Assembly: GCA_011525015.1 (NCBI GenBank)
Contig: WTJC01000020.1
Coordinates: forward strand, 1 to 64,000
Direction: 5' to 3'
Length of the DNA stretch: 64,000 bases
From: Flavobacteriales bacterium
Lineage (GTDB): Bacteria; Bacteroidota; Bacteroidia; Flavobacteriales; Flavobacteriaceae
This document shows, piece after piece, positions 30,383 through 52,631 of the stretch. The notes under the pieces were generated by a model. It did no database searches, had not been told where the DNA came from, and saw nothing but the letters and a program-made list of their open reading frames with translations. Position 1 is the first letter of the stretch; the number at the start of each line of letters is the position of its first letter. Made by a program: the position numbers and the translations under genes.

Positions 30383-31165
30383 ATGCAGCACTATTTTGAA
30401 GGTAAAAAGGTATTGATTACGGGAGCCTCTTCAGGTATTGGAAAAGCTTTGGCCATAGCGCTCTCTAAATTCAACACTGTACTTGTTTTGGCCTCGCGCA
30501 ATACTAATGCCCTTGAGCAGGTTGCAGCGCAATGCCATTCTAAAGCCCAGGTGACAATTGCTGAGCTCGATCTCAGCGACAGAGCAAACCACCAAGCCTT
30601 TGTGCATAAATTCGAAGGTTTTGATCTGGTATTTCACAACGCAGGTATTTCACAACGATCTCTAGTGGCCGAAACGATTTTCGATGTCGATCATAAACTG
30701 ATGGAGGTCAACTATTTGGGAACAGTGCATCTCACCAAACTCTTACTGCCTGCGATGCTGCAAAAAGGCGGCGGACACTTTATCGTGGTTACAAGTCTTA
30801 CAGGTCTTATTCCCACACCTTACAGGTCTTCATATGCAGCCTCCAAACACGCCTTACACGGCTTTTTTGATTCGATGAGAGCAGAATTAGAATCACAAGG
30901 AATACATATTACCCTGGCAGCTCCTGGCTTTGTACAAACCAATGTGTCGGTCAATGCACTCATCGGTGACGGAAGCGCCCTTGGAAAAATGGATCACGCC
31001 CAAGCCAATGGGATTACTGCAGAGCACTGTGCTAATAAAATTCTCATAGCCACTGCCAAAAAGAAGCGCCTTCAATTGATAGGACGAGAGTCTTATGCCG
31101 TTTGGGTTCGAAGATTTTTTCCTTCGCTCTTTGCTCGACTGATCAAAAAAGCAAAAGTGAGATAG
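30383..31165 (+). CDS. SDR family oxidoreductase, DhrS7-like
   Basis: The 260-residue short-chain dehydrogenase has the cofactor motif TGASSGIGKAL, FHNAGISQRS for the NNAG motif, the catalytic Ser in VVTSLTG and the full YAASK motif in RSSYAASKHAL. The end is basic and hydrophobic (RRFFPSLFARLIKKAKVR), suggesting peripheral membrane attachment as in DHRS7-type enzymes. The substrate is unknown. It starts directly after the aldo/keto reductase stop, which suggests a joint carbonyl-reduction role. Confidence 0.87.
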   Translation: MQHYFEGKKVLITGASSGIGKALAIALSKFNTVLVLASRNTNALEQVAAQCHSKAQVTIAELDLSDRANHQAFVHKFEGFDLVFHNAGISQRSLVAETIFDVDHKLMEVNYLGTVHLTKLLLPAMLQKGGGHFIVVTSLTGLIPTPYRSSYAASKHALHGFFDSMRAELESQGIHITLAAPGFVQTNVSVNALIGDGSALGKMDHAQANGITAEHCANKILIATAKKKRLQLIGRESYAVWVRRFFPSLFARLIKKAKVR

Positions 31166-31192: not shown

Positions 31193-32788
31193 TTATTCTT
31201 TGATTATTGTAGGATATTCAATCCCCAATTGCTCGAGATAGGTGTCGTATTTCGTTTCATCAAAATAAAACTCAGAGAGCTGAGGCTTGAACTTTTCCAT
31301 GATTGCAGTGTTTAACTCCACAGGCGGCGGATCATTTTCTGTAATCATAGGCTTATAGGTGGTTTCTTTACTTTGCACATTGGTAAAGTAGTCTTTAGCC
31401 TGGTCAACTAAAGTTGGATTCAACAAAAAGTCGACCAAAGTCATGGCCACAACTTTTGCTCCAGCGGTCACTCCTTTGTGTGCGATAGGAGTTGCCATAG
31501 CAATGGCATTTGACCAGTGATGACCTTGAAGACCAGGAATATTTGACGGAAATCTCATGGTTACCGTAGGCACCTTCCACGAGACATCTCCGATATCGTC
31601 TGATCCACCACTAACTAAAATAGGAGAGGGCTTACCAAGTGAACTGAGTTCTGTAGACAGTCCAGAAGTTCTATTCGAATTAACTTCCTTTTGAACGGCT
31701 TTAGCTAGAGTTTGATCAGCTTCTGACCACTCTGGTAATCCAACATCTTGAATATTTTCATACATGGTCTCAGCGATAACCTTATTGAAATGCCGGGGCC
31801 AGGCTGTTCCAACAACTCTTGAACTCACTTCAGTATCGGTCATTTTAGCAGCACCTTCGGCAATGTTATTTGCGTCATTGTACATTTTCATGATCCCTTC
31901 GTAGGTGATATCCCTCAAATAATACCAAATAGACGCTTTGGATGGCACTACATTGGGCTGGTCACCAGCATCGGTAAATATTGAATGTGATCTTTTGAGT
32001 GGATGTAGGTGTTCTCTCTTATAGTTCCAACCGATATTCATGAGTTCGGCTGCGTCCAAAGCAGAACGTCCTCTCCAAGGGGCTCCCGCAGAATGTGCTG
32101 CTTCACCTTCAAAAGTGTATTCTACAGAAATTAAACCTGTTCCTCGAGCTTGTCCCCATGAAACACTGAGATTACTACTCACGTGGGTGAAAATACACAT
32201 GTCGATATCATCAAAATATCCGTCTCGTACAAACCAGGCTTTAGAAGCTACGAGTTCTTCAGCAATTCCGGGCCAAACCACTAGGGTTCCTGGGATATCG
32301 TGTTCTTTCATCATTTGCTTAACCCCGATAGCCGCTGTCACATTTAAAGGGATTCCTGCATTGTGACCTTCACCGTGACCAGGTGCACCTTCTACCATAG
32401 GCTTGTGATAGGCTACACCGGGATATTGAGAAGCCTTGGGAATACAATCCACGTCACTTCCTAAGGCAATGACAGGGCCGTCTCCGTTTTTCCATCTCGC
32501 AAACCAAGCAGTTGGAATATCTGAAACTCCGTATTCTATGTCAAAGCCCGCTTTTTCTAGAATGGAGGTGAGATAGGCCGAAGATTCTACTTCGTGAAAA
32601 CCGAGCTCGGCAAAACTGAAAATTTTGTCGACCATAATCTGGCTGTTTTTGTGTTCAGATTCAACCCATTGCTTGATTTCTTGTTTTTGTTTCTTGACAA
32701 AAGACTTGGAGTATTTCTTTTGTGCATTGAGGCTAAAGACCATTAAGATCGCCCCGAGACTTAAAATTTTTACGCTTATTTTTTTCAT
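31193..32788 (-). CDS. Secreted M20 family amidohydrolase, AbgB-like
   Basis: The 531-residue protein begins with a Sec signal peptide (MKKISVKILSLGAILMVFSLNAQ). The M20 core matches AbgB-type amidohydrolases: IFSFAELGFHEVES, GSDVDCIPKASQYPG, PGHGEGHNAG for the metal centre, GIAEELVASKAW with its catalytic Glu, and the dimerisation-domain stretch EGEAAHSAGAPWRGRSALDA. It should hydrolyse an amide or peptide-like bond with two metal ions in the periplasm. It lies 31 bases after the mutarotase gene, as the last member of the fucose operon, although no fucose step needs it. Candidate substrates such as an amide-linked sugar derivative or a p-aminobenzoyl-glutamate type compound are guesses. Confidence 0.87.
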   Translation of the reverse strand: MKKISVKILSLGAILMVFSLNAQKKYSKSFVKKQKQEIKQWVESEHKNSQIMVDKIFSFAELGFHEVESSAYLTSILEKAGFDIEYGVSDIPTAWFARWKNGDGPVIALGSDVDCIPKASQYPGVAYHKPMVEGAPGHGEGHNAGIPLNVTAAIGVKQMMKEHDIPGTLVVWPGIAEELVASKAWFVRDGYFDDIDMCIFTHVSSNLSVSWGQARGTGLISVEYTFEGEAAHSAGAPWRGRSALDAAELMNIGWNYKREHLHPLKRSHSIFTDAGDQPNVVPSKASIWYYLRDITYEGIMKMYNDANNIAEGAAKMTDTEVSSRVVGTAWPRHFNKVIAETMYENIQDVGLPEWSEADQTLAKAVQKEVNSNRTSGLSTELSSLGKPSPILVSGGSDDIGDVSWKVPTVTMRFPSNIPGLQGHHWSNAIAMATPIAHKGVTAGAKVVAMTLVDFLLNPTLVDQAKDYFTNVQSKETTYKPMITENDPPPVELNTAIMEKFKPQLSEFYFDETKYDTYLEQLGIEYPTIIKE

Positions 32789-32819: not shown

Positions 32820-33158
32820 TCAGGTTAAGGTATATATTTTTTCCATCATTCGCCATTTTTCTCCTTCTTTTGAGTTTGGTAAGGCTTGCTGAAATGTCCA
32901 CATCAATTCTTCCCACTCTTGAACTTTCGGATTATTTTGATCTGCCATTTCTTTTTTCTCCCAACTGAAGGCTTCATTGGTCTCTACAATCATAAAAAGC
33001 CGGTTTTCTACGCGGTAGATGTCCAAGGCGGTTATTCCAGAAGATTTTAGACTCAATTGAATTTCGGGCCACACGTTTTTATGATGTTTCAGATAAGCAC
33101 TGATAAGTGCTTCATCGTTCTTTAAATCAAGGGCAAGACAATATCTATGATGCTTCAT
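32820..33158 (-). CDS. RhaM-type sugar mutarotase, probably for L-fucose
   Basis: The 112-residue protein belongs to the L-rhamnose mutarotase family (DUF718): RYCLALDLKNDEALISAYLKHHKNVWPEI, GITALDIYRVENRLFMIVET and the Trp-rich EWEELMWTFQQALP. The fold is a dimeric ferredoxin-like barrel that interconverts sugar anomers. The gene overlaps fucP by 14 bases, and all its neighbours handle L-fucose, so it probably supplies the anomer used by the dehydrogenase. The usual fucose mutarotase FucU belongs to a different family and is absent here. Confidence 0.85.
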   Translation of the reverse strand: MKHHRYCLALDLKNDEALISAYLKHHKNVWPEIQLSLKSSGITALDIYRVENRLFMIVETNEAFSWEKKEMADQNNPKVQEWEELMWTFQQALPNSKEGEKWRMMEKIYTLT

Positions 33159-34443
33159 TTTCTTTTAAAATAAATCGTCCAAAAGCGAGAATATACACAA
33201 AACAAAGTGCGGGTAAAACAAATGAGAAGTTTACTTCGGAGACCCCGAGCACTTTTATATCATTGACAGCGCGCCCCCCAAAATCTATGATCCTACCTTG
33301 TAATTGAGGCATTAGGGCTCCACCGACAATGGCCATCACCAAACCGGCTGCGCCTATTTTCGATAGATCTTGATCTAATTTTTTTAGGGAAATTCCGTAA
33401 ATCGTAGGGAACATGAGCGACATAAAAAACGAAATCCCAATAAGGCAATACATGCCTAAAAGAGACTCGTTCATCATGGTCATTACCGAACAAAGAAATC
33501 CTCCGATGGCAAAGTAGCTAAGCAATCGAGCAGAAGGAATAAATTTCATCAAATACGTACAAAGGGCCCTTCCGCTAAAAAAGAGCAGAAAGGCTATGAA
33601 TTGATAGTTAGCTGCAGTCGTGTTGCTGATTCCTATGTTTTCGGCGTATTGATAGATGTAGGTCCAACACATGATTTGGGCGCCAACATAGAAAACTTGA
33701 GCACCTACACCAAAACGATATCTCTTGTTTTTGATGAGTTCAGAAAACCCTTTTTTTAATTCTAAACGGTCTTGTTCTGACTGAATTACAGGCATTTTAG
33801 TTACCAGAATTAAGATAAAAAACAGGGCAATCACCAATCCAATGGCCACATATGGATCTCTTATTACCATTAAATCAGCAGATCGAATTAAGGCTTTTTG
33901 AGCGATATCTAATGAAGCGTAGTTTTCAATATTATCCGATTGCAAATTCTTAAGCACAAATTGTTGGGCGATGACCAAACCTAAAATGAGGCCAACCGGA
34001 TTAAAGAGTTGCGCAAAATTTAAGCGTCTGGTCGCCGTAGTCTTTGAGCCCATCGCAAGAATATAGGGGTTAGCGGTAGTTTCTAAAAAGGCCAGACCAA
34101 AGGTCAAGACATAAAGGCCTAAACAGAAGAACCAAAACGCCTCGTATTGAGCTGCAGGAATAAATAAATTAGCCCCGATAAAATAGAGTGCTAATCCCAA
34201 CAAGACTCCTTTTTTATAGCCTTGCTTTCGGACAAAAAGCGCCGCGGGAAGCGCCATACAAAAGTATCCGCCATAAAAAGCCATTTGAACCCAAGACGCC
34301 TGAGCGTTAGAGAGTTCAAGCACGGTTTTAAAGGCTTGAACCATGGGGTCTGTTACCGCATTGGCAAATCCCCAAAGGGCAAATAAACAGGTGATTAAAA
34401 TAAAAGGAAGGGTGTATTTTTTTTCGATTAACTGATCTTTCAT
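33145..34443 (-). CDS. fucP: L-fucose:H+ symporter
   Basis: The 432-residue major facilitator protein has 12 membrane helices and matches FucP. Evidence includes LPFILITCLFALWGFANAVTD in helix 1, AQASWVQMAFYGGYF, FLETTANPYILAMG with the conserved Glu, and RRLNFAQLFNPVG. FucP brings L-fucose in with a proton; close relatives also carry galactose or arabinose. The position inside an L-fucose catabolic operon makes L-fucose most likely. There is a 10-base gap to the preceding dehydrogenase gene. Confidence 0.92.
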   Translation of the reverse strand: MKDQLIEKKYTLPFILITCLFALWGFANAVTDPMVQAFKTVLELSNAQASWVQMAFYGGYFCMALPAALFVRKQGYKKGVLLGLALYFIGANLFIPAAQYEAFWFFCLGLYVLTFGLAFLETTANPYILAMGSKTTATRRLNFAQLFNPVGLILGLVIAQQFVLKNLQSDNIENYASLDIAQKALIRSADLMVIRDPYVAIGLVIALFFILILVTKMPVIQSEQDRLELKKGFSELIKNKRYRFGVGAQVFYVGAQIMCWTYIYQYAENIGISNTTAANYQFIAFLLFFSGRALCTYLMKFIPSARLLSYFAIGGFLCSVMTMMNESLLGMYCLIGISFFMSLMFPTIYGISLKKLDQDLSKIGAAGLVMAIVGGALMPQLQGRIIDFGGRAVNDIKVLGVSEVNFSFVLPALCFVYILAFGRFILKENEAS

Positions 34444-34453
34444 GTTCCGGGTT

Positions 34454-35233
34454 TTAAATGCTTCGGTCTAAATGTGTATATCCTCCATCGACGTGTATGA
34501 TTTGACCTGTGGTATGGCTTGATCGTGAAGAAAGTAAAAAGCAAACAGTTGAAGCGATTTCTTCAGGGGTAGTCATTCGCTGACCCAATGGAATTTTTGA
34601 TTCAATTTCATTTTTTTTGAGCTCTGGATTTTCAAAACTCTCAATCCATCTTTGGTATAATGGGGTGTACGATTCGGCAACCACCACGGCGTTTACGCGA
34701 ATGTCGTCTTGCAATAAATCTACAGCCCATTCTCTGGTAAGTGCATTTCGTGCACCGTTGGCGGCGGCATAACCTGAGGTTCCTCCTTGCCCAGTTTTAG
34801 CTACTTTAGAGCTGATATTTACGATAGCTCCTTTGCTTGTTTTAAGGCCTTCGAGGCAGAGTTGTACCATATTGAAATAATGCCCGACGTTCTTTTCAAT
34901 TGAGCTCAAAAATTCTGTGTAGCTGCCATGCTTTAAGCTCACGCCATCATTTACGCCCGCATTGTTCACAACACCGTCTATTCTTCCATAACGTTGCATA
35001 AGCTTTTCAATAGCATCTTTGCACTGGCTGAGATCCGTTAGTTCAGCGATCGCATAGTCTGCTCGGCCTCCTTCACTTTCGATTGCGGCTATACAACTTT
35101 GACAATCTTTTTCTTTTCTGCTGATGATAAAGGGCAGGGCTCCTTCTTGAGCAAGAACTTGAGCAATGGCTCTGCCAATTCCTTTGTCTCCTCCTGTGAC
35201 CACAATGACTTTATCTGTGAGCTGTAAATCCAT
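34454..35233 (-). CDS. SDR oxidoreductase, probable L-fucose dehydrogenase, atypical active site
   Basis: The 259-residue SDR has the cofactor motif TGGDKGIG (residues 13-20), NNAG (90-93) and active-site Ser142. The catalytic YxxxK is replaced by YAAAN: Tyr155 is kept but position 159 is Asn (codon AAC on the minus strand). The context, between fucosidase and fucP genes and next to fuconolactone and diketofuconate enzymes, assigns it to the first step, NAD(P)-dependent oxidation of L-fucose to L-fucono-1,5-lactone. Without the Lys, the proton relay must differ from standard SDRs or the activity must differ. The other two SDRs in the window keep YxxxK. The sequence is otherwise intact, with no frameshift. 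Confidence 0.8.
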   Translation of the reverse strand: MDLQLTDKVIVVTGGDKGIGRAIAQVLAQEGALPFIISRKEKDCQSCIAAIESEGGRADYAIAELTDLSQCKDAIEKLMQRYGRIDGVVNNAGVNDGVSLKHGSYTEFLSSIEKNVGHYFNMVQLCLEGLKTSKGAIVNISSKVAKTGQGGTSGYAAANGARNALTREWAVDLLQDDIRVNAVVVAESYTPLYQRWIESFENPELKKNEIESKIPLGQRMTTPEEIASTVCFLLSSRSSHTTGQIIHVDGGYTHLDRSI

Positions 35234-35236
35234 GAT

Positions 35237-37288
35237 TTATTCTGTTATGATATTGATTTCAGCAAAACTTACAAACTCTTGGGTGTCGATGATGCGCTCT
35301 GCCTTTATTCTAAAATACCTGGTTCGTTGTGATTTCTCAAATGAAACCTTCTTTACTTTTCGGTCGTTGGTAATATTGGCAAATTCTCCTGTTTGTACCA
35401 GTTTCCATTTTCGACCATTATTTGATTTCCAAACACTATAGCTCGAAATGACTCCTTTGGGATACCTCCTCTGGTCGGGTAGAAATTCAAATCCCTTTAG
35501 GTTTTGTTTTTTGCCAAAATCAATACGCAGATCCCTTGAATTAGATTCGAATACCGTTGTAGGATTTTCATCAAATGCAGCTGAAGCCTTTTGGTCTTCG
35601 TTCAGCGTTTTCCAAGGAGATTTATACACGTCAAAATACACCTGAGTAGGTTCACTTTGTGTATTGGTTTTCGCATCGTACGCCACGGCATTGACCACTG
35701 TTCTCTCAGGTAATTTTATCGCCTCGCTGAATACTTGAGAAGTTGAAGAAGGGGTGTCTTGATTTAAACTGTAATAAATAGTCGCATCTGCATCGGCGGC
35801 TTTTATTTCAACAAGACCTGAGACCGTTCTATTAATTTTTGGTGGCTCCAACAAAATTGGGGCGCGATAAAGCCCAAGTTCAGAGAGTACAATACTTCCC
35901 TTAGATTTTGATACTTTCAGTTTAAAATGACTTGAAGAGGTGTTTTTAAAAGAAAGTATTCTTTTGTTGCCAATGGTGGTTTGCTGAACCAAGGTGTCCC
36001 AAATACCCTGTTCATTTTTTGCTAAAAACGAAAAAGCTTGAACTCGTTGACCGAGTGGTATATATTCTCTTAACACAAGTCTATTTAATTCTTCAGGGGC
36101 ATCAAATTGGATTTCTATTTCAGCAGAATTCACTTCTTCTGCTGTTGCCCAATAAGATGCTTTTTCTCGATCTTTTAATCGGTCTACACCATAATTATTT
36201 CCCCTTTCATTGGATGCCTTTAAAGTTGCCTTCTGAATGAGGTCTTCTTTAAAGTCTAGTTTTATTTGTTGACTCAATTGCATCATAGCAGCACTGTCTG
36301 CTTCGTGAATTAGCCCTCGATGGTCTACCGGAATATTGAGCAAAAAGTTTCCGTTTCGCCCAATACTCTCATAGTAGGTTTGAACCAATCTGCTTTTTGA
36401 TTTTACCTGATGATCTTCTCTGGGGTGGTAGTACCAACCTGGCCTGATAGAGGTGTTTACTTCTGCGGGAAGCCAGTGCGTTCCATCTTGGTGTCCGTAA
36501 CGCAATTCAACATATTTTGGCCAACCGGGGTAAATCTCGTCTCTACGCATCGTACTCCAATTGGTTTCTCCGGCCCATCCTTCTTCGGTGCCCACCCAGC
36601 GAACATCTGGTCCACCATCGCTAAAAATGACAGCATCAGGCTGAAATTCTCTAACCATTTCGGTGGTTTTATCCCACTGGTAGTAGGTTTTATTGTCGAT
36701 TTTTCTGGTTTCATTAGCCCCTCCATAATAGCCAAAACCTCCGTTTGCGCCATCAAACCATATTTCAAAAAGTTCACCGTATTCAGTCAGCAGCTCGCGC
36801 AATTGTTCGTGAAAAATGGAGACATAGGTGTCTGTACCGTAGTGTTCGTTGTTTCGATCCCAAGGAGAGAGGTAAAGCCCCAATTTAAGTCCGTATTTAT
36901 CACAGGAATTTCGAAGGTCTCTCAACACATCTCCTTGTCCATTTCTCCAAGCACTTGACTTTACGCTGTGCGCAGTTGTTTTTGTTGGCCATAAACAAAA
37001 TCCATCGTGATGTTTGGCGGTTAGAATAAGGCCTTTCATCCCTGCTTCTTTGGCAATTCTCGCCCATTGATCTGTATCGAGTTGCACTGGATTAAAGGTG
37101 TCGGCCGTTTCTCCTCCTGTACCCCATTCGAGGTCGGTGAAGGTGTTCATATTGAAATGAATAAAACCGTAGTACTCCAACTCTTGCCATTTTAATTGCC
37201 GATCAGAAGGCAGTGGTCCTATTGGACTAGGAGCTGGTGGTGCACAACAAAAAACAAGCAGTAGTAAGAGGAAACTTAACTTTTTCAT
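35237..37288 (-). CDS. Alpha-L-fucosidase (GH29) lipoprotein with C-terminal accessory domains
   Basis: The 683-residue protein starts with a lipoprotein signal (LVFCC, about Cys14/15). The GH29 catalytic barrel covers about residues 30-340, with YYGFIHFNMNTFTD, ILTAKHHDGFCLW and the nucleophile motif EIWFDGANGG (Asp179). Next comes a galactose-binding-like domain, then an immunoglobulin/chitobiase-type segment (ATIYYSLNQDTPSS) and a C-terminal F5/8C-like module (RYPKGVISSYSVWKSNNGRKWKLV). This is the domain order of GH29 subfamily B enzymes, which prefer 1,3- and 1,4-linked fucose. The outer-membrane or periplasmic lipoprotein would release L-fucose for FucP. It overlaps the lactonase gene by 4 bases. 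Confidence 0.9.
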   Translation of the reverse strand: MKKLSFLLLLLVFCCAPPAPSPIGPLPSDRQLKWQELEYYGFIHFNMNTFTDLEWGTGGETADTFNPVQLDTDQWARIAKEAGMKGLILTAKHHDGFCLWPTKTTAHSVKSSAWRNGQGDVLRDLRNSCDKYGLKLGLYLSPWDRNNEHYGTDTYVSIFHEQLRELLTEYGELFEIWFDGANGGFGYYGGANETRKIDNKTYYQWDKTTEMVREFQPDAVIFSDGGPDVRWVGTEEGWAGETNWSTMRRDEIYPGWPKYVELRYGHQDGTHWLPAEVNTSIRPGWYYHPREDHQVKSKSRLVQTYYESIGRNGNFLLNIPVDHRGLIHEADSAAMMQLSQQIKLDFKEDLIQKATLKASNERGNNYGVDRLKDREKASYWATAEEVNSAEIEIQFDAPEELNRLVLREYIPLGQRVQAFSFLAKNEQGIWDTLVQQTTIGNKRILSFKNTSSSHFKLKVSKSKGSIVLSELGLYRAPILLEPPKINRTVSGLVEIKAADADATIYYSLNQDTPSSTSQVFSEAIKLPERTVVNAVAYDAKTNTQSEPTQVYFDVYKSPWKTLNEDQKASAAFDENPTTVFESNSRDLRIDFGKKQNLKGFEFLPDQRRYPKGVISSYSVWKSNNGRKWKLVQTGEFANITNDRKVKKVSFEKSQRTRYFRIKAERIIDTQEFVSFAEINIITE

Positions 37289-38112
37289 AAATCATAAAAG
37301 TGAATACAGTTCGTAGCAAAAACTTTTTCAATATCCTTTTGGTCGCTCAGTGAAAAATAGGATTTCAATAAATCTAAGTGATCCTTAAAGTTTGATGCCA
37401 ATAAACAAACCGGCCAGTCTGAGCCGTAAAGCAGCCTATCCATGCCAAAACAGCGAACAACATGATCTAAATAGGGTAGAATCTGCTCTACCTGCCAGGG
37501 TTTTGTTTGGATTTCAGTAAAAATTCCAGAGAGTTTACAGTAAACTTTGGGCTGGTCTGCAAGTTGCTCAATTTGTTCTGCCCAATGCATATCCATCGGA
37601 AGATTGTATTGGGGTTTTCCCAAGTGGTCAAGTACAAAATACTGATCTGGAAAGTTTTGGGTCAGTGCTATGGCAGCTTCGAATTGTTTGGGATAAATCA
37701 AGATGTCATAAGTGAGGTCAAACTTTTGCAACTGTGAAATGCCCTGCTGAAAATCATCCCTCAACATAAAGAAATCGTCTTCTTCGTCTTGAACGATATG
37801 TCTCAGGCCTTTAAAAAAATCATTTTGGGTGTAGTGCTCAAGCTTGTCGTTTATATCATTTGTACAGAGGTCTAACCAGCCTACAACGCCTTTTATAATG
37901 TCGTACTGTTGAGCGTAATGCAAAAGCATTACAGTTTCTTGTTCGGTCTGTGCCGCTTGCACAGCAACGCATCCCTCAACCTCAGATTGCGCATAGACCT
38001 GCTCTAAATCAGCGGGTTTGAAATCTCTTGCTATTGCAGCCATACTCGAGTCGATCCAGGCATGAGTGCTAGGGTGATAGTTCCAAAAGTGCTGATGGCT
38101 GTCAATGATCAT
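37285..38112 (-). CDS. Amidohydrolase family protein, probable L-fucono-lactonase
   Basis: The 275-residue TIM-barrel amidohydrolase has metal-binding IIDSHQHFW at the N-terminus, GLRHIVQDE in the middle, FVLDHLGKPQ, and the final LLYGSDWPVC Asp motif. This is the COG3618 pattern shared by L-fuconolactonases and related lactonases, which act on the lactone released by a sugar dehydrogenase. It should hydrolyse L-fucono-1,5-lactone to L-fuconate in the cytoplasm. Four-base overlaps with both neighbours indicate coupled translation. Confidence 0.88.
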   Translation of the reverse strand: MIIDSHQHFWNYHPSTHAWIDSSMAAIARDFKPADLEQVYAQSEVEGCVAVQAAQTEQETVMLLHYAQQYDIIKGVVGWLDLCTNDINDKLEHYTQNDFFKGLRHIVQDEEDDFFMLRDDFQQGISQLQKFDLTYDILIYPKQFEAAIALTQNFPDQYFVLDHLGKPQYNLPMDMHWAEQIEQLADQPKVYCKLSGIFTEIQTKPWQVEQILPYLDHVVRCFGMDRLLYGSDWPVCLLASNFKDHLDLLKSYFSLSDQKDIEKVFATNCIHFYDL

Positions 38113-38966
38113 TCAGGGTAGTTTATAATTTCTTGTCGCGCTTCTCCCAATCCCTCAATACCTAACTCAACTAGGTCTCCTGCCTTTAAGTATCTGGGTG
38201 GATCAAATCCTAGTCCAACACCAGATGGGGTCCCTGTAGAAATGATATCTCCGGGAAGTAAGGTCATAAATGAACTGATATAACTCACCAATTCGTCAAT
38301 TTTAAAAACCAAATCAGAAGTGTTGCTGTCTTGAACTCGTTCACCATTTACCTTTAACCAAAGATCTAGTTTGTGCGGGTCTGCAATTTCATCTCGTCCG
38401 ACTAAATAAGGTCCAAGTGGAGCGAAAGTGTCGTGACTTTTTCCCTTTACCCACTGGCCTTCGCGTTCTAACTGAAAGGCTCTTTCACTGTAATCATTGT
38501 GTAAAACATATCCAGCAATATGAGAGAAGGCGTCAGCTTTAGAAACATAGGTGGCCTTTTTGCCAATAACTACGCCGAGTTCAACTTCCCAATCGAGTTT
38601 AGTCGCCTTTTTAGGTATGGTGATTTGGTCATTAGGACCACAAATGGCTGAGCTTGCTTTAAAAAAAAGGACAGGCTCTTTCGGCAACGTCATTCCGCTT
38701 TCAGAGGCGTGCTTGGAATAGTTGAGTCCAACGCATATGATTTTAGAAACCTGACTCAGAGGAGCAGCTAGTCGCTGATCAGGAGAGACTTTAGGGCAGC
38801 TTTGTTCATGCTCAGACAACCATTGTTTTAGGTTGTGCATTCCGTCCTGTTCAAAAAAATCAGAATCGAAGTCAGATGTGAATGCGCTGACGTCAATGAG
38901 GTCTCCGTTTTTTGTGAGTACAGCTGGTTTTTCTTGCCCTTGGGCTCCGTATCGTGCGAGTTTCAT
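38109..38966 (-). CDS. FAH-family hydrolase, probable 2,4-diketo-3-deoxy-L-fuconate hydrolase
   Basis: The 285-residue fumarylacetoacetate hydrolase-family protein has the divalent-metal site LDWEVELGVVIGKKA with paired Glu residues, HNDYSERAFQLEREGQWVKGKSHDTFAPLGPYLV, and GDIISTGTPSGVGLGFDPP. In the oxidative fucose route this family cleaves 2,4-diketo-3-deoxy-L-fuconate to pyruvate and L-lactate. Similar proteins are often mislabelled ureidoglycolate lyase; the fucose neighbours argue against that here. It starts directly after the stop of the SDR gene at 38967. Confidence 0.88.
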   Translation of the reverse strand: MKLARYGAQGQEKPAVLTKNGDLIDVSAFTSDFDSDFFEQDGMHNLKQWLSEHEQSCPKVSPDQRLAAPLSQVSKIICVGLNYSKHASESGMTLPKEPVLFFKASSAICGPNDQITIPKKATKLDWEVELGVVIGKKATYVSKADAFSHIAGYVLHNDYSERAFQLEREGQWVKGKSHDTFAPLGPYLVGRDEIADPHKLDLWLKVNGERVQDSNTSDLVFKIDELVSYISSFMTLLPGDIISTGTPSGVGLGFDPPRYLKAGDLVELGIEGLGEARQEIINYPE

Positions 38967-39734
38967 TTAACTGTTTAATTTTATAAATCCACCATCTATG
39001 GGGTAATCTGTTCCGGTAATAAAGGCGGCGTCATCTGAACAGAGAAAGAGCGCAAACTTTGCGATTTCTTCAGGGGAAGCCATACGGCCTATAGGTTGAG
39101 TTTTTGAGAGTTGAGCGAACATTTGCTCTTGCTTTTCAGGATAGTTTTCTCTGATAAAACCATCGACAAAAGGGGTGTGAACCCGTGCTGGCGAAATGCT
39201 ATTGCAGCGAATGCCGTGTTCAACATAATCTTTGGCTACAGAATAGGTCATGGTCAGTACAGCTCCTTTGGTCATAGAATACGCAAAGCGATCACTTATA
39301 CCCACGCTCGAGGCTATTGAAGCCATATTTAGAATTACCCCTTTTTTACGTTGTTTCATGTGTAAAATAAAGGCGTGCATTCCATTGTAGACCCCCTTAA
39401 TATTGACCTCGTACAATCGGTTTAAATCGTCTACATCTGTTTTTTCAAGTGATCCCACGTGAGCGATTCCTGCATTATTGATGAGAATATCTACCGGATG
39501 TTCCCCTTCAATTTTGGTCGCAAGCTGATGAAAATCTGCGTTTTTACTGATATCGCAGTATAAAAATTTAACTTTTTCTGAACCGATGGATTCGACCACT
39601 TGTTCTGCTTGATTCGAATTGGTGTCGATGAGGTAAACTCGGGCTCCAGCTTGCGCAAAAGTGCGAACCAAGGCCTCTCCAATTCCACTTGCGCCTCCGG
39701 TGATGACAACGGTTTTATGTTGAAGGTCTTGCAT
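38967..39734 (-). CDS. SDR oxidoreductase, probable 2-keto-3-deoxy-L-fuconate dehydrogenase
   Basis: The 255-residue SDR carries VVITGGASGIGEAL, NNAGIAHVG, the catalytic Ser in NMASIASSVG and an intact YSMTK motif, then PIGRMASPEEIAKFALFL near the end. It matches the 2-keto-3-deoxy-L-fuconate dehydrogenase group, which oxidises the C4 hydroxyl to give the 2,4-diketo compound cleaved by the FAH-family enzyme encoded next. The pair sits between the two fucosidase genes. The step before it, dehydration of fuconate, has no gene here. Confidence 0.87.
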   Translation of the reverse strand: MQDLQHKTVVITGGASGIGEALVRTFAQAGARVYLIDTNSNQAEQVVESIGSEKVKFLYCDISKNADFHQLATKIEGEHPVDILINNAGIAHVGSLEKTDVDDLNRLYEVNIKGVYNGMHAFILHMKQRKKGVILNMASIASSVGISDRFAYSMTKGAVLTMTYSVAKDYVEHGIRCNSISPARVHTPFVDGFIRENYPEKQEQMFAQLSKTQPIGRMASPEEIAKFALFLCSDDAAFITGTDYPIDGGFIKLNS

Positions 39735-39739
39735 CAGGA

Positions 39740-41077
39740 CTATTTGAGTTCTAACTCAATAATGGTATTAATAGGATTCATTTCAGCTTTTGGAATAGCG
39801 ATTGTCAATCCCAAGTCGTTTTGTTCGTATCTCACCTTTTTTGAGGTTCCATAAAGTTTGGCCGATTTGATTTTTTCAGGAACATCTCTTAAAAAGATGA
39901 CATTGTGTTCTGGGTCGAGTACGTGAAGGTAAACTTTGCGGTCTTTTCGGGTAGAAGCCAATTGATTATCGGGTTCTAAAATACCAGCCTTTGTGCCGTA
40001 TACCGTTTCACCGTATTGATCGAGCCACAATCCAATTTCTGAAAGTGATTTGAGGTGTTCCGTTTGAATTTTTCCATTGGGCATTGGCCCCACGTTTAAT
40101 AAAAGGTTACTGCCGTAAGAAGCAGATTTAACCAATAAGTGAATAAGTTCTTTAGACGATTTATGTTTGTCGTCTTGAAGGTTGAATCCCCAAGACCCGT
40201 TTATGGTCTCACAAACCTCTAAGGGCAATTGACCGATATCTGAAGCTGAAGTTCCCCAGCCTGTGGTGTTTTGTCCGGGAAGGTCTTTCTCAAACATTTG
40301 AAAGTCCTCTCCTGAAATGGGAGCAATATGATGGTTGTTTCCGATCAAAGCATGAGGTTGTAAATCGTGAATTAACTGATACAATTCGCGATAGTGCCAA
40401 TCAACATTGAGTTTGCCGAATTTTTTTCCGTCCCATTGTTTTTGGTCCCAATGCCCGTCAAACCATATGCCTCCAATTTCTCCGTAGTTCGTTAAAAGCT
40501 CGGTGAGCTGCTGCTTCATAAAGGCGATATACGCATTCCAATCTCCGTTTTCACGACCTTTTATACCTAAACCTGTACGACCACGAGGATAGTAATCATC
40601 ACTTCTCCAATCCAGCAGAGAATAATAGAAAAACAACTTAATGTCAGCCTTTTTACAGGCCGCGGCCAACTCTTTTAAGACATCTCGTTTAAAAGGGGTG
40701 GCATCTACAATGTCATAGTCTTCTGCGGCGGTATCAAACATTGAAAAACCATCGTGATGTCTACTGGTGATGGTGATGTATTTCATACCGGCATTTTTGG
40801 CCATTGCCACCCACTCTTCTGCATCGAAGTCAATGGGATTAAAAAAGGAAGGTAATTTTTCATAGGTGTCAACGGCAATATTCTGATTGTTCATCACCCA
40901 TTCGCCATCTCCTAAAAGACTGTACACTCCCCAGTGAATGAAGAGTCCAAAACGGGCTTCTTGAAACCACTCACGTGCGTTTAAATTTTCTTCAGAGGGC
41001 TGATAATTCGGAATTCCTTGTTGCGCGAAATTGAGGCTTACTGCAAAGAGTAAGACCAGAGACCATTGTTTTTTCAT
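39740..41077 (-). CDS. Alpha-L-fucosidase (GH29), secreted
   Basis: The 445-residue protein has a Sec signal (MKKQWSLVLLFAVSLNFAQQ), no accessory modules and a GH29 barrel: RFGLFIHWGVYSLLG near residue 42, ITSRHHDGFSMFD near 104 and the nucleophile Asp207 in GGIWFDGHWD. The short beta-sandwich end and conserved features suggest the broad-specificity A-type group, complementing the B-type enzyme at 35237. It would release terminal L-fucose in the periplasm. As the first gene of the nine-gene minus-strand run it is followed by genes with gaps of 5 bases or less for the next several genes. Confidence 0.92.
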   Translation of the reverse strand: MKKQWSLVLLFAVSLNFAQQGIPNYQPSEENLNAREWFQEARFGLFIHWGVYSLLGDGEWVMNNQNIAVDTYEKLPSFFNPIDFDAEEWVAMAKNAGMKYITITSRHHDGFSMFDTAAEDYDIVDATPFKRDVLKELAAACKKADIKLFFYYSLLDWRSDDYYPRGRTGLGIKGRENGDWNAYIAFMKQQLTELLTNYGEIGGIWFDGHWDQKQWDGKKFGKLNVDWHYRELYQLIHDLQPHALIGNNHHIAPISGEDFQMFEKDLPGQNTTGWGTSASDIGQLPLEVCETINGSWGFNLQDDKHKSSKELIHLLVKSASYGSNLLLNVGPMPNGKIQTEHLKSLSEIGLWLDQYGETVYGTKAGILEPDNQLASTRKDRKVYLHVLDPEHNVIFLRDVPEKIKSAKLYGTSKKVRYEQNDLGLTIAIPKAEMNPINTIIELELK

Positions 41078-41243: not shown

Positions 41244-42818
41244 ATGCTTAGCACACAGCATTTGTTTAAAAGTGTACCGGTAATCCTTATGGCAATCTTT
41301 GGATTAAATTCTTGCACTCCTTCAAAGACATTAAAAGAAACAAGACCTAACATCATCTACATTTTAGCAGATGACTTAGGATATGGTGAGCTTGGAGCTT
41401 ATGGACAACTAAAGATAGAAACGCCCAACATAGATGCTTTAGCTGCCTCTGGCATGAAGTTTACACAGCATTATTCAAGTGCACCTGTTTGTGCTCCAGC
41501 TCGATATATGTTGTTAACAGGACAACATTCTGGCCATGCTTTCATCAGAGGAAATGATGAGATGAGATCAAGAGGAAAGGTTTGGGATTACCATGAAATG
41601 GTCAAAGACTCAACCTTAGAGGGTCAACGACCTATGCCCGAAAACACTAAAACCCTTGCGCACTATTTAAAGTCAGCAGGTTATCAAACAGCAATGGTCG
41701 GTAAGTGGGGGTTAGGCTCGCCAGACTCTCATTCTGTTCCAACCAAAATGGGTTTTGATTACTTCTACGGTTATAATTGTCAACGCATCGCTCACACTTT
41801 TTATCCCACGCATTTATACGAAAATCTCAATCGAGTTTACCTCAACAATGAGGCGATTGCACCTCATACAAAACTCGAAGAAGGGGCCGACCCATACGAT
41901 GAGAAGAGCTACAGTAATTTTAAACTCAATGATTTTGCACCGGATTTGATGTACGATAAAATGAGTGCTTTTGTCGAAGAGGCCTCCAATGAAGAACCCT
42001 TCTTTTTGTATTGGGCCTCACCAATTCCGCACAACCCTTTACAGGCACCGCAGCGATGGGTAGATCATTACATTCAAAAATTTGGAGAAGAAGAACCCTA
42101 TTTGGGAGACAAAGGATACTTTCCCAATCAAACCCCCAGAGCTACTTACGCGGCAATGATTTCCTACTTTGACGAAAACGTTGGCCGACTCGTTCAAAAA
42201 CTAAAAGAAAAGGGAGTGTACGAAAACACGCTAATCTTGTTTAGCTCTGACAACGGCGTTACTTTTTCTGGAGGTACCGATGGAGGGTTTTTTAATTCCT
42301 CAGGTCCTTTTGGTGAAGAGCGTGGACGCGGAAAAGGCTTTGTTTATGAAGGAGGTATTCGCGTACCTATGATTGCCTCATGGCCGAATAAAATTAGCGC
42401 CGGATCTGAAACTGACCACATCTCAATACAATACGATTTATTGGCAACTCTATCTGAGTTAGCCTCTTTTGAAATCACCTCTGAGCAGGATGGGATTAGT
42501 TTTTTGCCCACTTTACTCGGGCAGGACAATCAGAAGCAGCACGACTATTTATATTGGGAGTTTCCTGAATATGGAGGACAGTTAGCACTGCGTTTTGGCG
42601 ACTACAAATTCGTTTGGGCTCATCTGAAAGATAAACTGCCGCCGAGTCTTGAGCTTTATAATTTGAAAGAAGATCCGGCAGAAGAGAACAATATTGCTGA
42701 ACAGCATCCACAGCTCATTGAGCAGGCAGACGCGTATTTTCGCCAAGCGCACCAGCGCTCTGAAATTGAGCGTTTTCAAATTCCTTTACTCGAAGAGGGC
42801 TTTTTGAAGGCTAATTGA
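41244..42818 (+). CDS. Family S1 sulfatase, CAPAR active site, lipoprotein
   Basis: The 524-residue formylglycine sulfatase has an N-terminal signal with probable lipid-anchor Cys24 (FGLNSC). The catalytic motif is VCAPARYMLLTG with Cys83 in the canonical CxPxR context for conversion to formylglycine. Metal-binding residues are in YILADDLGYG and in FSSDNGVTF, with the Lys of MVGKWGLGS. It removes sulfate esters from polysaccharides in the periplasm or at the surface. It diverges from the fucose operon across a 166-base gap and may desulfate fucose-containing glycans before fucosidase action. The substrate cannot be assigned. It overlaps the next minus-strand gene by 8 bases. Confidence 0.92.
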   Translation: MLSTQHLFKSVPVILMAIFGLNSCTPSKTLKETRPNIIYILADDLGYGELGAYGQLKIETPNIDALAASGMKFTQHYSSAPVCAPARYMLLTGQHSGHAFIRGNDEMRSRGKVWDYHEMVKDSTLEGQRPMPENTKTLAHYLKSAGYQTAMVGKWGLGSPDSHSVPTKMGFDYFYGYNCQRIAHTFYPTHLYENLNRVYLNNEAIAPHTKLEEGADPYDEKSYSNFKLNDFAPDLMYDKMSAFVEEASNEEPFFLYWASPIPHNPLQAPQRWVDHYIQKFGEEEPYLGDKGYFPNQTPRATYAAMISYFDENVGRLVQKLKEKGVYENTLILFSSDNGVTFSGGTDGGFFNSSGPFGEERGRGKGFVYEGGIRVPMIASWPNKISAGSETDHISIQYDLLATLSELASFEITSEQDGISFLPTLLGQDNQKQHDYLYWEFPEYGGQLALRFGDYKFVWAHLKDKLPPSLELYNLKEDPAEENNIAEQHPQLIEQADAYFRQAHQRSEIERFQIPLLEEGFLKAN

Positions 42819-51206: not shown

Positions 51207-52631
51207 ATGAGAACATACGCTTTCGTTTTTGTTTTGTGTTTATTGTCTTGTTCAGAGGCGACACTTGAACAGACTCCACCCAATGTTATTTTTATTCTCA
51301 CCGACGATCAAGGATACGGCGATTTGGGAATTTATGGAGCAAAAGATTTCAGTACTCCCAACCTCGATAAATTGGCGAGAGAAGGAGTCTATTTTACTTC
51401 TTATTACGCGACTCAGCCCGTTTGCTCCGCCTCGAGAGCTTCTATTTTGACGGGATGTTACCCCAATCGAATAGGCATTCACAACGCCTTTATGCCCAAT
51501 GCAAAAATCGGCTTGAATCCTGCTGAAACGACAATAGCAGAACTATTAAAAGAAGAGGGCTATGCCACCGGAATCTTTGGAAAATGGCATCTTGGGGATG
51601 CGGCTCCTTTCTTACCTACCAAGCAAGGATTTGATGAATTCTACGGTATTCTGTACTCCAATGATATGTGGCCTTATCATCCACAACAAGGAAGCTGGTT
51701 CAATTTTGACGATATTTTTCTCTATAAAAATGAAGAGCCCATTCGAAAATTGACCGATCAATCGACCTTAACTCGAGAATTTACCGAAGAAGCTATAAAT
51801 TTTATCAGCACTCATAAAGACCAACCATTTTTCGTTTACCTGCCACACCCACAACCTCATGTGCCACTTTTTGCCCATGAAGATTTTGAAGGAACCCAAG
51901 ATCGAGGGCTATACGGAGATGTTATTCACGAAATAGACCATGAGGTTGGACGTCTTGTTCAACATCTCGAAGATTTAGACCTTTTAGAGAATACTATTAT
52001 CGTATTTACCTCAGACAATGGCCCCTGGCTATCATACGGCGGACATTCAGGTTCATCTGGCATTTACAGAGAAGGCAAAGGCACCAATTGGGAGGGAGGT
52101 CATAGGGTTCCGGCCATCGTGTCTTATCCCAAATCGATAAAATCTCCAAAAATCATTGACCAGCCTGCCATGGGAATAGATTGGCTACCCACAATTGCCG
52201 AATGGACTAAGGCTAAAATGCCTGAGCTCAAGATTGACGGTAAGTCCTTGGTTCCACTGATGACCAATGCTTCAGCAGTAAGTCCGCACAAGAACTTCTT
52301 TTTTTATTATCGCGTTAATGAACTTCACGCCATTCGCCATGAAGACTACAAATTGTATTTGCCCCATACTTATAGGTCTTTAAATGGTCGTGTAGGAACA
52401 GATGACGGCCTTCCCATCAATTATGAAATGAACAAAATTGAAGCCCCAGAATTATACCATCTGATTGACGATCCAACGGAGTCTGTTAATATTGCCGACA
52501 AGCATCCTGAAAAAACTCGAGAAATATTGAAAATCGCAGATTCAATACGAATGGTATTGGGCGATGCACTTACCGAACAGATCGGAAATGAAGTGCGTGA
52601 AGCGGGTAAAATAAAAGCGGAGGATAAATAA
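51207..52631 (+). CDS. Family S1 sulfatase, CSASR active site, lipoprotein
   Basis: The 474-residue formylglycine sulfatase has a lipoprotein signal (LCLLSC, Cys15). The active-site motif is VCSASRASILTG with Cys73; the CxAxR form is a recognised substrate of formylglycine-generating enzyme, as is CxPxR. Metal ligands appear in FILTDDQGYGDLG and FTSDNGPWLSYGG, and IFGKWHLGD holds the Lys/His pair. It has lower similarity to the 41244 sulfatase, so it probably removes sulfate from a different position or sugar. No fucose-cluster gene is adjacent. Confidence 0.92.
   Translation: MRTYAFVFVLCLLSCSEATLEQTPPNVIFILTDDQGYGDLGIYGAKDFSTPNLDKLAREGVYFTSYYATQPVCSASRASILTGCYPNRIGIHNAFMPNAKIGLNPAETTIAELLKEEGYATGIFGKWHLGDAAPFLPTKQGFDEFYGILYSNDMWPYHPQQGSWFNFDDIFLYKNEEPIRKLTDQSTLTREFTEEAINFISTHKDQPFFVYLPHPQPHVPLFAHEDFEGTQDRGLYGDVIHEIDHEVGRLVQHLEDLDLLENTIIVFTSDNGPWLSYGGHSGSSGIYREGKGTNWEGGHRVPAIVSYPKSIKSPKIIDQPAMGIDWLPTIAEWTKAKMPELKIDGKSLVPLMTNASAVSPHKNFFFYYRVNELHAIRHEDYKLYLPHTYRSLNGRVGTDDGLPINYEMNKIEAPELYHLIDDPTESVNIADKHPEKTREILKIADSIRMVLGDALTEQIGNEVREAGKIKAEDK

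Follow-up and report, generated by a model that had tools for sequence, protein, structure and literature searches.

The window (the whole stretch of 64,000 nucleotides analysed here) encodes an SDR in which the catalytic lysine of the YxxxK motif is replaced by an asparagine, Asn159. The substitution is genuine and clade-wide, neither an error nor a quirk of one genome, and the comparisons below show a real and conserved variant, probably functional, within a known family of enzymes, the L-fucose dehydrogenases. In its clade the lost lysine is accompanied by a new arginine, Arg162, which suggests that these enzymes may have arrived at a different way of catalysing the same reaction.

Table 1. 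Positions of the dehydrogenase gene, of its key codons and of the surrounding fucose genes in the window
Feature	Position	Strand	Evidence
Asn-type L-fucose dehydrogenase (SDR), 259 aa	34454..35233	-	ORF; NF052481; fold match to 4gkb/4glo and 6drr/6ds1
Asn115, tetrad Asn	34889..34891	-	51/54 clade rows; Ser in three (L097, L116, L123)
Ser142, kept	34808..34810	-	54/54 clade rows
Tyr155, catalytic base, kept	34769..34771	-	53/54 clade rows; unread in L002 (N base)
Asn159, codon AAC, replaces SDR catalytic Lys	34757..34759	-	Codon reading; 4gkb alignment
Arg162, codon CGA, linked to loss of Lys159	34748..34750	-	54/54 clade rows vs 0/85 Lys-type rows
Val185	34679..34681	-	54/54 clade rows; Lys-type column Pro 60, Ile 23, Val 2 of 85
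L-fucose:H+ symporter FucP	33145..34443	-	TIGR00885, 482.5 bits (cut-off 280.4)
Alpha-L-fucosidase	35237..37288	-	Alpha_L_fucos domain and F5/8 type C
Putative L-fuconolactonase (Amidohydro_2)	37285..38112	-	NF052480 the sole model matched, 245.2 bits, below cut-off 400; Pfam
FAH-type hydrolase	38109..38966	-	NF053535, 360.2 bits, below cut-off 500; PF01557
SDR (YSMTK), best model the broad PRK07231 subfamily	38967..39734	-	
Second alpha-L-fucosidase	39740..41077	-	PF01120, 332.2 bits

Asparagine in place of the catalytic lysine

The lysine of YxxxK is a textbook element of SDR catalysis. The window protein departs from the classical tetrad Asn-Ser-Tyr-Lys at this last residue: its motif reads Y155-A-A-A-N159, the YxxxN form of polyketide ketoreductases, and Asn115, Ser142 and Tyr155 are all present. 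The sequence-only reading had noticed the asparagine, encoded by AAC, together with the retained Tyr155 and Ser142, and the codon reads the same here; it had also observed correctly that the two other SDRs of the window retain YxxxK (YAASK at 30383-31165, and YSMTK).

A sequencing error at codon 159 was rejected: the two closest relatives, from separate MAGs and with 94% and 92% identity (among the best 80 of 113 relatives), likewise have AAC, and across the 52 Asn-type genes other than the query, a set that contains these two, the codon is AAC in 29 and AAT in 23. A lysine in another register was rejected as well. Near the motif the alignment with the solved structures 4gkb and 6drr is free of gaps and places the lysine of each opposite Asn159, and an alternative register is excluded because the predicted helix 153-172, which contains both Tyr155 and Asn159, has no lysine in its sequence (AlphaFold2 model with pLDDT 96.1 and pTM 0.93). 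Nor is the gene a pseudogene: the ORF is intact and dN/dS is low. The three closest genes are under purifying selection with dN/dS values of about 0.08-0.15: NG86 gives about 0.15 for the query and L001, about 0.09 for the query and L002 and about 0.09 for L001 and L002 (pairs with L002 use 251 codons, L002 having unread bases), and YN00 gives 0.08 to 0.15 for the same three genes.

Residues 1-259 match positions 1-257 of the 257 of the curated NCBIfam L-fucose dehydrogenase model NF052481 with 398.7 bits (cut-off 300), and the protein also matches PF13561 and PF00106. The glycine-rich TGxxxGxG of classical SDRs is present (T13-G-G-D-K-G-I-G20) and the Rossmann fold matches. A phmmer search against solved structures gave 224 bits for 6drr and 109 for the next sequence (best 60 of 674 matches). 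Both family sequences with structures (4gkb and 6drr) are Lys-type, so that the Asn type has no representative among these 60. From the model match, the low dN/dS and the fucose gene context described below, the window protein is very probably an active dehydrogenase of L-fucose or of a very similar aldose.

A clade without the catalytic lysine in Bacteroidota

Members of the family were found in 20 of 98 near genomes (E <= 1e-60) and in 55 of 395 genomes of the phylum (six candidates scored per genome). Two duplicates were removed from the 115 family hits, as was one copy of the query; with the query itself the set has 113 rows. A search of genome contigs confirmed 113 relatives, of which the best 80 were kept; about 45 of the 80 are distant SDRs that stayed outside the family set, save a few that served as outgroup or in the structure alignment. 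In searches of other groups, with six to nine candidates scored per genome, the family was present in 14 of 398 genomes from the phylum of a Pantoea, in 10 of 288 from that of a Verrucomicrobiales MAG and in 4 of 294 from that of a Planctomycetaceae MAG. These searches yielded 31 sequences (30 Lys-type, one Asn-type; three from seed genomes already seen), of which 27 were added after removal of duplicates, resulting in 140 rows. The sampled genomes are related to each other and unevenly sampled.

Whether the asparagine is conserved, a question raised by the sequence-only reading, is answered by this family alignment: position 159 is lysine in 85, asparagine in 54 and cysteine in one of the 140 rows including the query (59, 53 and one in the 113-row alignment). 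When positions 159 and 162 are read together, 53 rows have Asn159 and Arg162, one has Cys159 and Arg162, 85 have Lys159 without Arg162 and one has Asn159 and Ile162. The Lys-type members are about 47-58% identical to the window protein.

In the tree of the 113 rows, the 54 rows with asparagine or cysteine lie on one side of a branch with support of 99/95. The 54 Arg162 rows also stay one clade (SH-aLRT 99) when columns 159, 162, 163 and 185 are removed and the 140 family rows are analysed together with six outgroup SDRs, in a quick search with no bootstrap and with long outgroup branches. The clade was sampled only from Bacteroidota: the named members belong to Flavobacteriaceae, Cytophagaceae, Chitinophagaceae, Hymenobacteraceae and Saprospiraceae, and the remaining rows come from the searches of the window's own relatives and of its own phylum. 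Lysine at position 159 is likely the older state, because it is carried by 85 of the 140 family rows and by five of the six outgroup rows; the sixth (L051) has neither Tyr155 nor Lys159.

Asn159 arose at least twice on the tree. The second occurrence is a sequence from a MAG of the Verrucomicrobiota search (L230, at L246:1559-2368), which has YAASN (codon AAT) and Ile162 and branches apart from the clade, among the Lys-type rows. Its cluster encodes a UxaA-like dehydratase, an MFS permease, an Amidohydro_2 lactonase, a DHDPS-type aldolase, a BMC shell protein and a sulfatase. If this protein works, Asn159 would need no arginine, and the sequence thus argues against an obligate role of Arg162.

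Arg162 accompanies the loss of lysine

All 54 members of the clade have Arg162 and Val185, and 52 have Asn163. Among the 85 Lys-type rows, position 162 is Gln (30), Val (29), Ile (15), Met (6), Leu (4) or Ser (1) and never Arg, and Asn163 is found in 18. In the 52 Asn-type genes the arginine is encoded by CGC (22), AGA (14), CGA (8), CGT (7) and AGG (1); since both CGN and AGR codons are used, it is retained at the level of the residue and not of the codon. One member of the clade (L099 of genome G030; wide stretch L178) has Cys159 (TGT) and retains Arg162; its gene adjoins those of a fucosidase and FucP. The conservation of Arg162 over deep divergence and in this Cys159 row argues that the residue may be needed, but as the Arg162 clade is a single event in the tree, the link between Arg162 and Asn159 may also be one of shared history.

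No lysine is exclusive to the clade in the 140 rows, and Arg162 is the sole clade-exclusive residue among the positions that are basic in more than 85% of the 53 Asn-type rows. Lys143 is found in 140 of 140 rows, a basic residue at position 114 in 51/54 clade rows vs 36/85 Lys-type rows, and Arg39 in 53/54 vs 58/85. A replacement lysine elsewhere in the protein was therefore rejected: Lys17 of the glycine-rich loop is enriched in the clade (50/54), yet it is common in Lys-type rows too (22/85).

Whether arginine could reach the site was examined by placing standard rotamers on an ideal helix and discarding those that clash with the backbone; the targets were the positions of the lysine amine that are compatible with a catalytic Tyr-Lys pair. 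Of nine positions, arginine at 162 came closest to the amine positions of Lys159, with a median distance of 2.6 Å; the medians of the other eight range from 3.5 Å (156 and 163) to 10.8 Å. The test considers the helix by itself, outside the protein and with no cofactor, and within these bounds shows that Arg162 is a possible stand-in.

Genomic context

In the window, the gene is part of a minus-strand run that reads, from 41077 to 33145, alpha-L-fucosidase, SDR (YSMTK), FAH-type hydrolase, Amidohydro_2 lactonase, alpha-L-fucosidase, Asn-type dehydrogenase and FucP. The roles of the lactonase and the FAH-type hydrolase lean on their position, because their best NCBIfam matches are below the cut-offs. 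No fuconate dehydratase was seen beside the window's fucose genes; a UxaA-like dehydratase elsewhere in the genome (L214) has 49-55% identity to 22 UxaA-like dehydratases of the family stretches. After fucP there is a gene for an amidohydrolase-like protein of 531 aa (31193-32788; TIGR01891), with an ORF of the same length at this place in L001 and L002, and this gene possibly also belongs to the operon in the genus. Two sulfatases are encoded near the fucose genes (41244-42818 and 51207-52631), which suggests use of a sulfated, fucose-rich polysaccharide.

For a comparison across genomes, five of 110 stretches had no called fucose dehydrogenase (L036-L039, which are distant SDRs, and L160) and were removed, leaving 105: 47 Asn/Cys-type loci (seven of the 54 rows have no wide stretch) and 58 Lys-type loci. 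FAH-type hydrolase (FAH), putative KDF dehydrogenase, FucP and lactonase were scored as the four core genes of the fucose pathway. At the 47 Asn/Cys-type loci, FAH was found 32 times, KDF dehydrogenase 29, FucP 28, lactonase 27 and L-lactate dehydrogenase 8 times; at least one core gene is present at 44 and at least two at 37. FAH and KDF dehydrogenase, which together mark the deoxy-fuconate route, co-occur at 28 of these loci. The fetched stretches of three of the 47 loci (L007, L177 and L188) contain none of the four, and a missing neighbour is weak evidence as the stretches vary in length from about 5 to 20 kb. The 58 Lys-type loci have FAH (33), KDF dehydrogenase (27), FucP (36) and lactonase (45), with at least one core gene at 53 and at least two at 43. 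Thus, the Asn/Cys and the Lys types both occur in sugar-acid pathways of the same kind, and because Lys-type loci carry the core genes about as often, the gene context backs the pathway and not a role of Arg162.

UxaA-like dehydratase genes are found in 13 of the 47 Asn/Cys-type stretches (L008, L011, L180, L181, L189-L192, L195, L198, L199, L201 and L212) and in 9 of the 58 Lys-type stretches, and an enolase-type dehydratase in 5 of the 47; the UxaA-like type is possibly a non-orthologous replacement of fuconate dehydratase. Tagaturonate reductase is encoded at 0 of 47 Asn/Cys-type vs 8 of 58 Lys-type loci. One group of Lys-type loci (L204-L210 and L158) adjoins a Zn-ADH (best model PRK10083, below cut-off), tagaturonate reductase and often a UxaA-like dehydratase. 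This set resembles the L-galactonate route, and by this analogy L-galactose may be the substrate for part of the Lys-type group.

In 36 of the 43 whole genomes with an Asn/Cys type, the search found no other member of the family (E <= 1e-60; the phylum search scored six candidates per genome), and seven of the 43 have the Lys type in addition. In genomes G021 and G011, the neighbours of the Asn type are KDF dehydrogenase, FAH hydrolase, FucP and an MLE-type dehydratase; those of the Lys type are FucP, Zn-ADH and tagaturonate reductase, to which G011 adds lactonase and a UxaA-like dehydratase. In G121, G264, G314 and G407, a UxaA-like dehydratase joins FAH and KDF dehydrogenase beside the Asn type, and lactonase and Zn-ADH adjoin the Lys type, in three of these genomes together with FAH. 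The arrangement is reversed in G415: here none of the scored genes lies near the Asn type, and FAH, KDF dehydrogenase, lactonase and Zn-ADH accompany the Lys type.

Proposed mechanism and alternatives

According to the available text of a 2026 review (PMC13406643), L-fucose dehydrogenase converts L-fucose to the 1,5-lactone in step one of the pathway. We propose that the window gene encodes a working L-fucose 1-dehydrogenase of this kind, whose reaction would open the non-phosphorylative fucose pathway. A single replacement in the Bacteroidota clade would have exchanged the catalytic lysine for Asn159 along with Arg162, one helix turn further. Tyr155, together with Ser142 and the ribose of the cofactor, would deprotonate L-fucopyranose at its C1 hydroxyl as the hydride passes to NAD(P)+. 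Asn159 would form a hydrogen bond to the nicotinamide ribose; Arg162 would extend its guanidinium back along the helix, supplying the positive charge that normally comes from lysine. We infer the activity, the substrate and the roles of Asn159 and Arg162 from sequence comparisons. For the explanation as a whole we see the balance as even; for Arg162 as a functional stand-in for lysine it is even at best. The broader claim, a lysine-free SDR centre of Asn-Ser-Tyr-Asn plus Arg that arose by one ancestral replacement in Bacteroidota, involved no ketoreductase-like swap and serves as L-fucose dehydrogenase in many members of the phylum, is more tentative, and we lean somewhat against it.

The sequence-only reading had offered two options, a subgroup with another proton relay or a protein with a function other than fucose oxidation. 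The first, with chemistry that we infer, fits because the clade is clean and Arg162 is strictly linked to it; the second is disfavoured by the match above the cut-off of NF052481, by the fucose genes around and by the 36 of 43 genomes in which the search turned up no other family member. The extreme form of the second, a clade that is catalytically dead or has an unrelated function, is extremely improbable: the lysine is held essential in most SDRs, but dN/dS is low, Tyr, Ser and the fold are conserved, the loci lie in fucose-type clusters and in most of the genomes the search found no other family member. An oxidation of another aldose of the same shape (L-galactose or D-arabinose) or a preference for NADP+, and hence a shift in substrate or cofactor rather than in chemistry, is improbable too. 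Residues such as Lys17 and Arg39 favour NADP+, and by these rules the enrichment of both in the clade suggests that NADP+ may be the cofactor. Against a new substrate stand the pairing of FAH with KDF dehydrogenase and the absence from all Asn/Cys-type loci of the tagaturonate reductase that is expected for L-galactonate.

The most serious competitor, which we still regard as unlikely, is that Asn159 alone suffices: it would hold the ribose, and Arg162 would serve either the fold or cofactor binding. In a sugar hemiacetal, the hydroxyl at C1 exceeds a plain alcohol in acidity and is more readily oxidised, and for this reason the enzyme could dispense with lysine. L230, with Asn159 and Ile162 of separate origin and within a fucose-type cluster, fits this explanation but is a single MAG sequence, and the entry 6h0m, titled as the K158A mutant of human HSD17B14 with NAD, indicates that cofactor binding can survive the loss of the lysine; the invariance of Arg162 in the clade, even next to Cys159, suggests a necessary role instead. 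A swap of lysine and asparagine like that of modular polyketide ketoreductases, in which the lysine would now occupy the site of the tetrad Asn, is very improbable. In the accessible passages of the literature, YxxxN is the usual motif of polyketide ketoreductase domains (PMC7159223, PMC5132015), and TylKR1 and EryKR1 have Lys and Asn placed opposite to those of another ketoreductase of the usual SDR kind (PMC4046962). However, position 115 of the clade is Asn in 51, Ser in three and Lys in none of the 54 rows, and no lysine is exclusive to the clade. The swap was therefore rejected.

Comparison with known systems

No report of a fucose dehydrogenase variant without the lysine was found in the open-licence literature searched. 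A conserved and probably working clade without the YxxxK lysine beside Lys-type relatives would be a natural experiment on the need for this residue, and NG[GA]R may serve as a sequence marker for the fucose route in Bacteroidota. Annotators should be warned not to call such proteins inactive; a missing expected motif is often read as loss of function, as in the text available for a ketoreductase domain (PMC5132015).

Among the closest known systems is the protein of Burkholderia multivorans (4gkb/4glo), which is about 53% identical along its entire length and superposes with Z 40.5 and an rmsd of 1.3 Å over 257 residues, with Asn115, Ser142 and Tyr155 aligned; it differs by having YCASK and Gln at position 162, where the window protein has YAAAN and Arg162. 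4gkb/4glo have the same sequence as 4gvx, which is called L-fucose dehydrogenase in the accessible part of the 2026 review (PMC13406643). Cj0485 of Campylobacter jejuni (6drr; 6ds1 with NADP+) has the same fold, belongs to the same family and is 43% identical, but it keeps the lysine (YASAK) and has Gln at 162. Human HSD17B14 shares the SDR fold and, according to the same part of the review (PMC13406643), is an L-fucose dehydrogenase catalysing the same reaction; it is only about 30% identical and its wild-type residue is Lys158, as judged from the title of 6h0m (K158A). The polyketide ketoreductase domains resemble the window protein in having asparagine in place of the motif lysine, and the excerpted text of PMC10864336 likewise mentions YxxxN as one of the SDR motifs. 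The modular ketoreductases, however, swap Lys and Asn, as far as the excerpts of PMC4046962 describe them, whereas the clade of the window protein keeps Asn115 and has no lysine instead.
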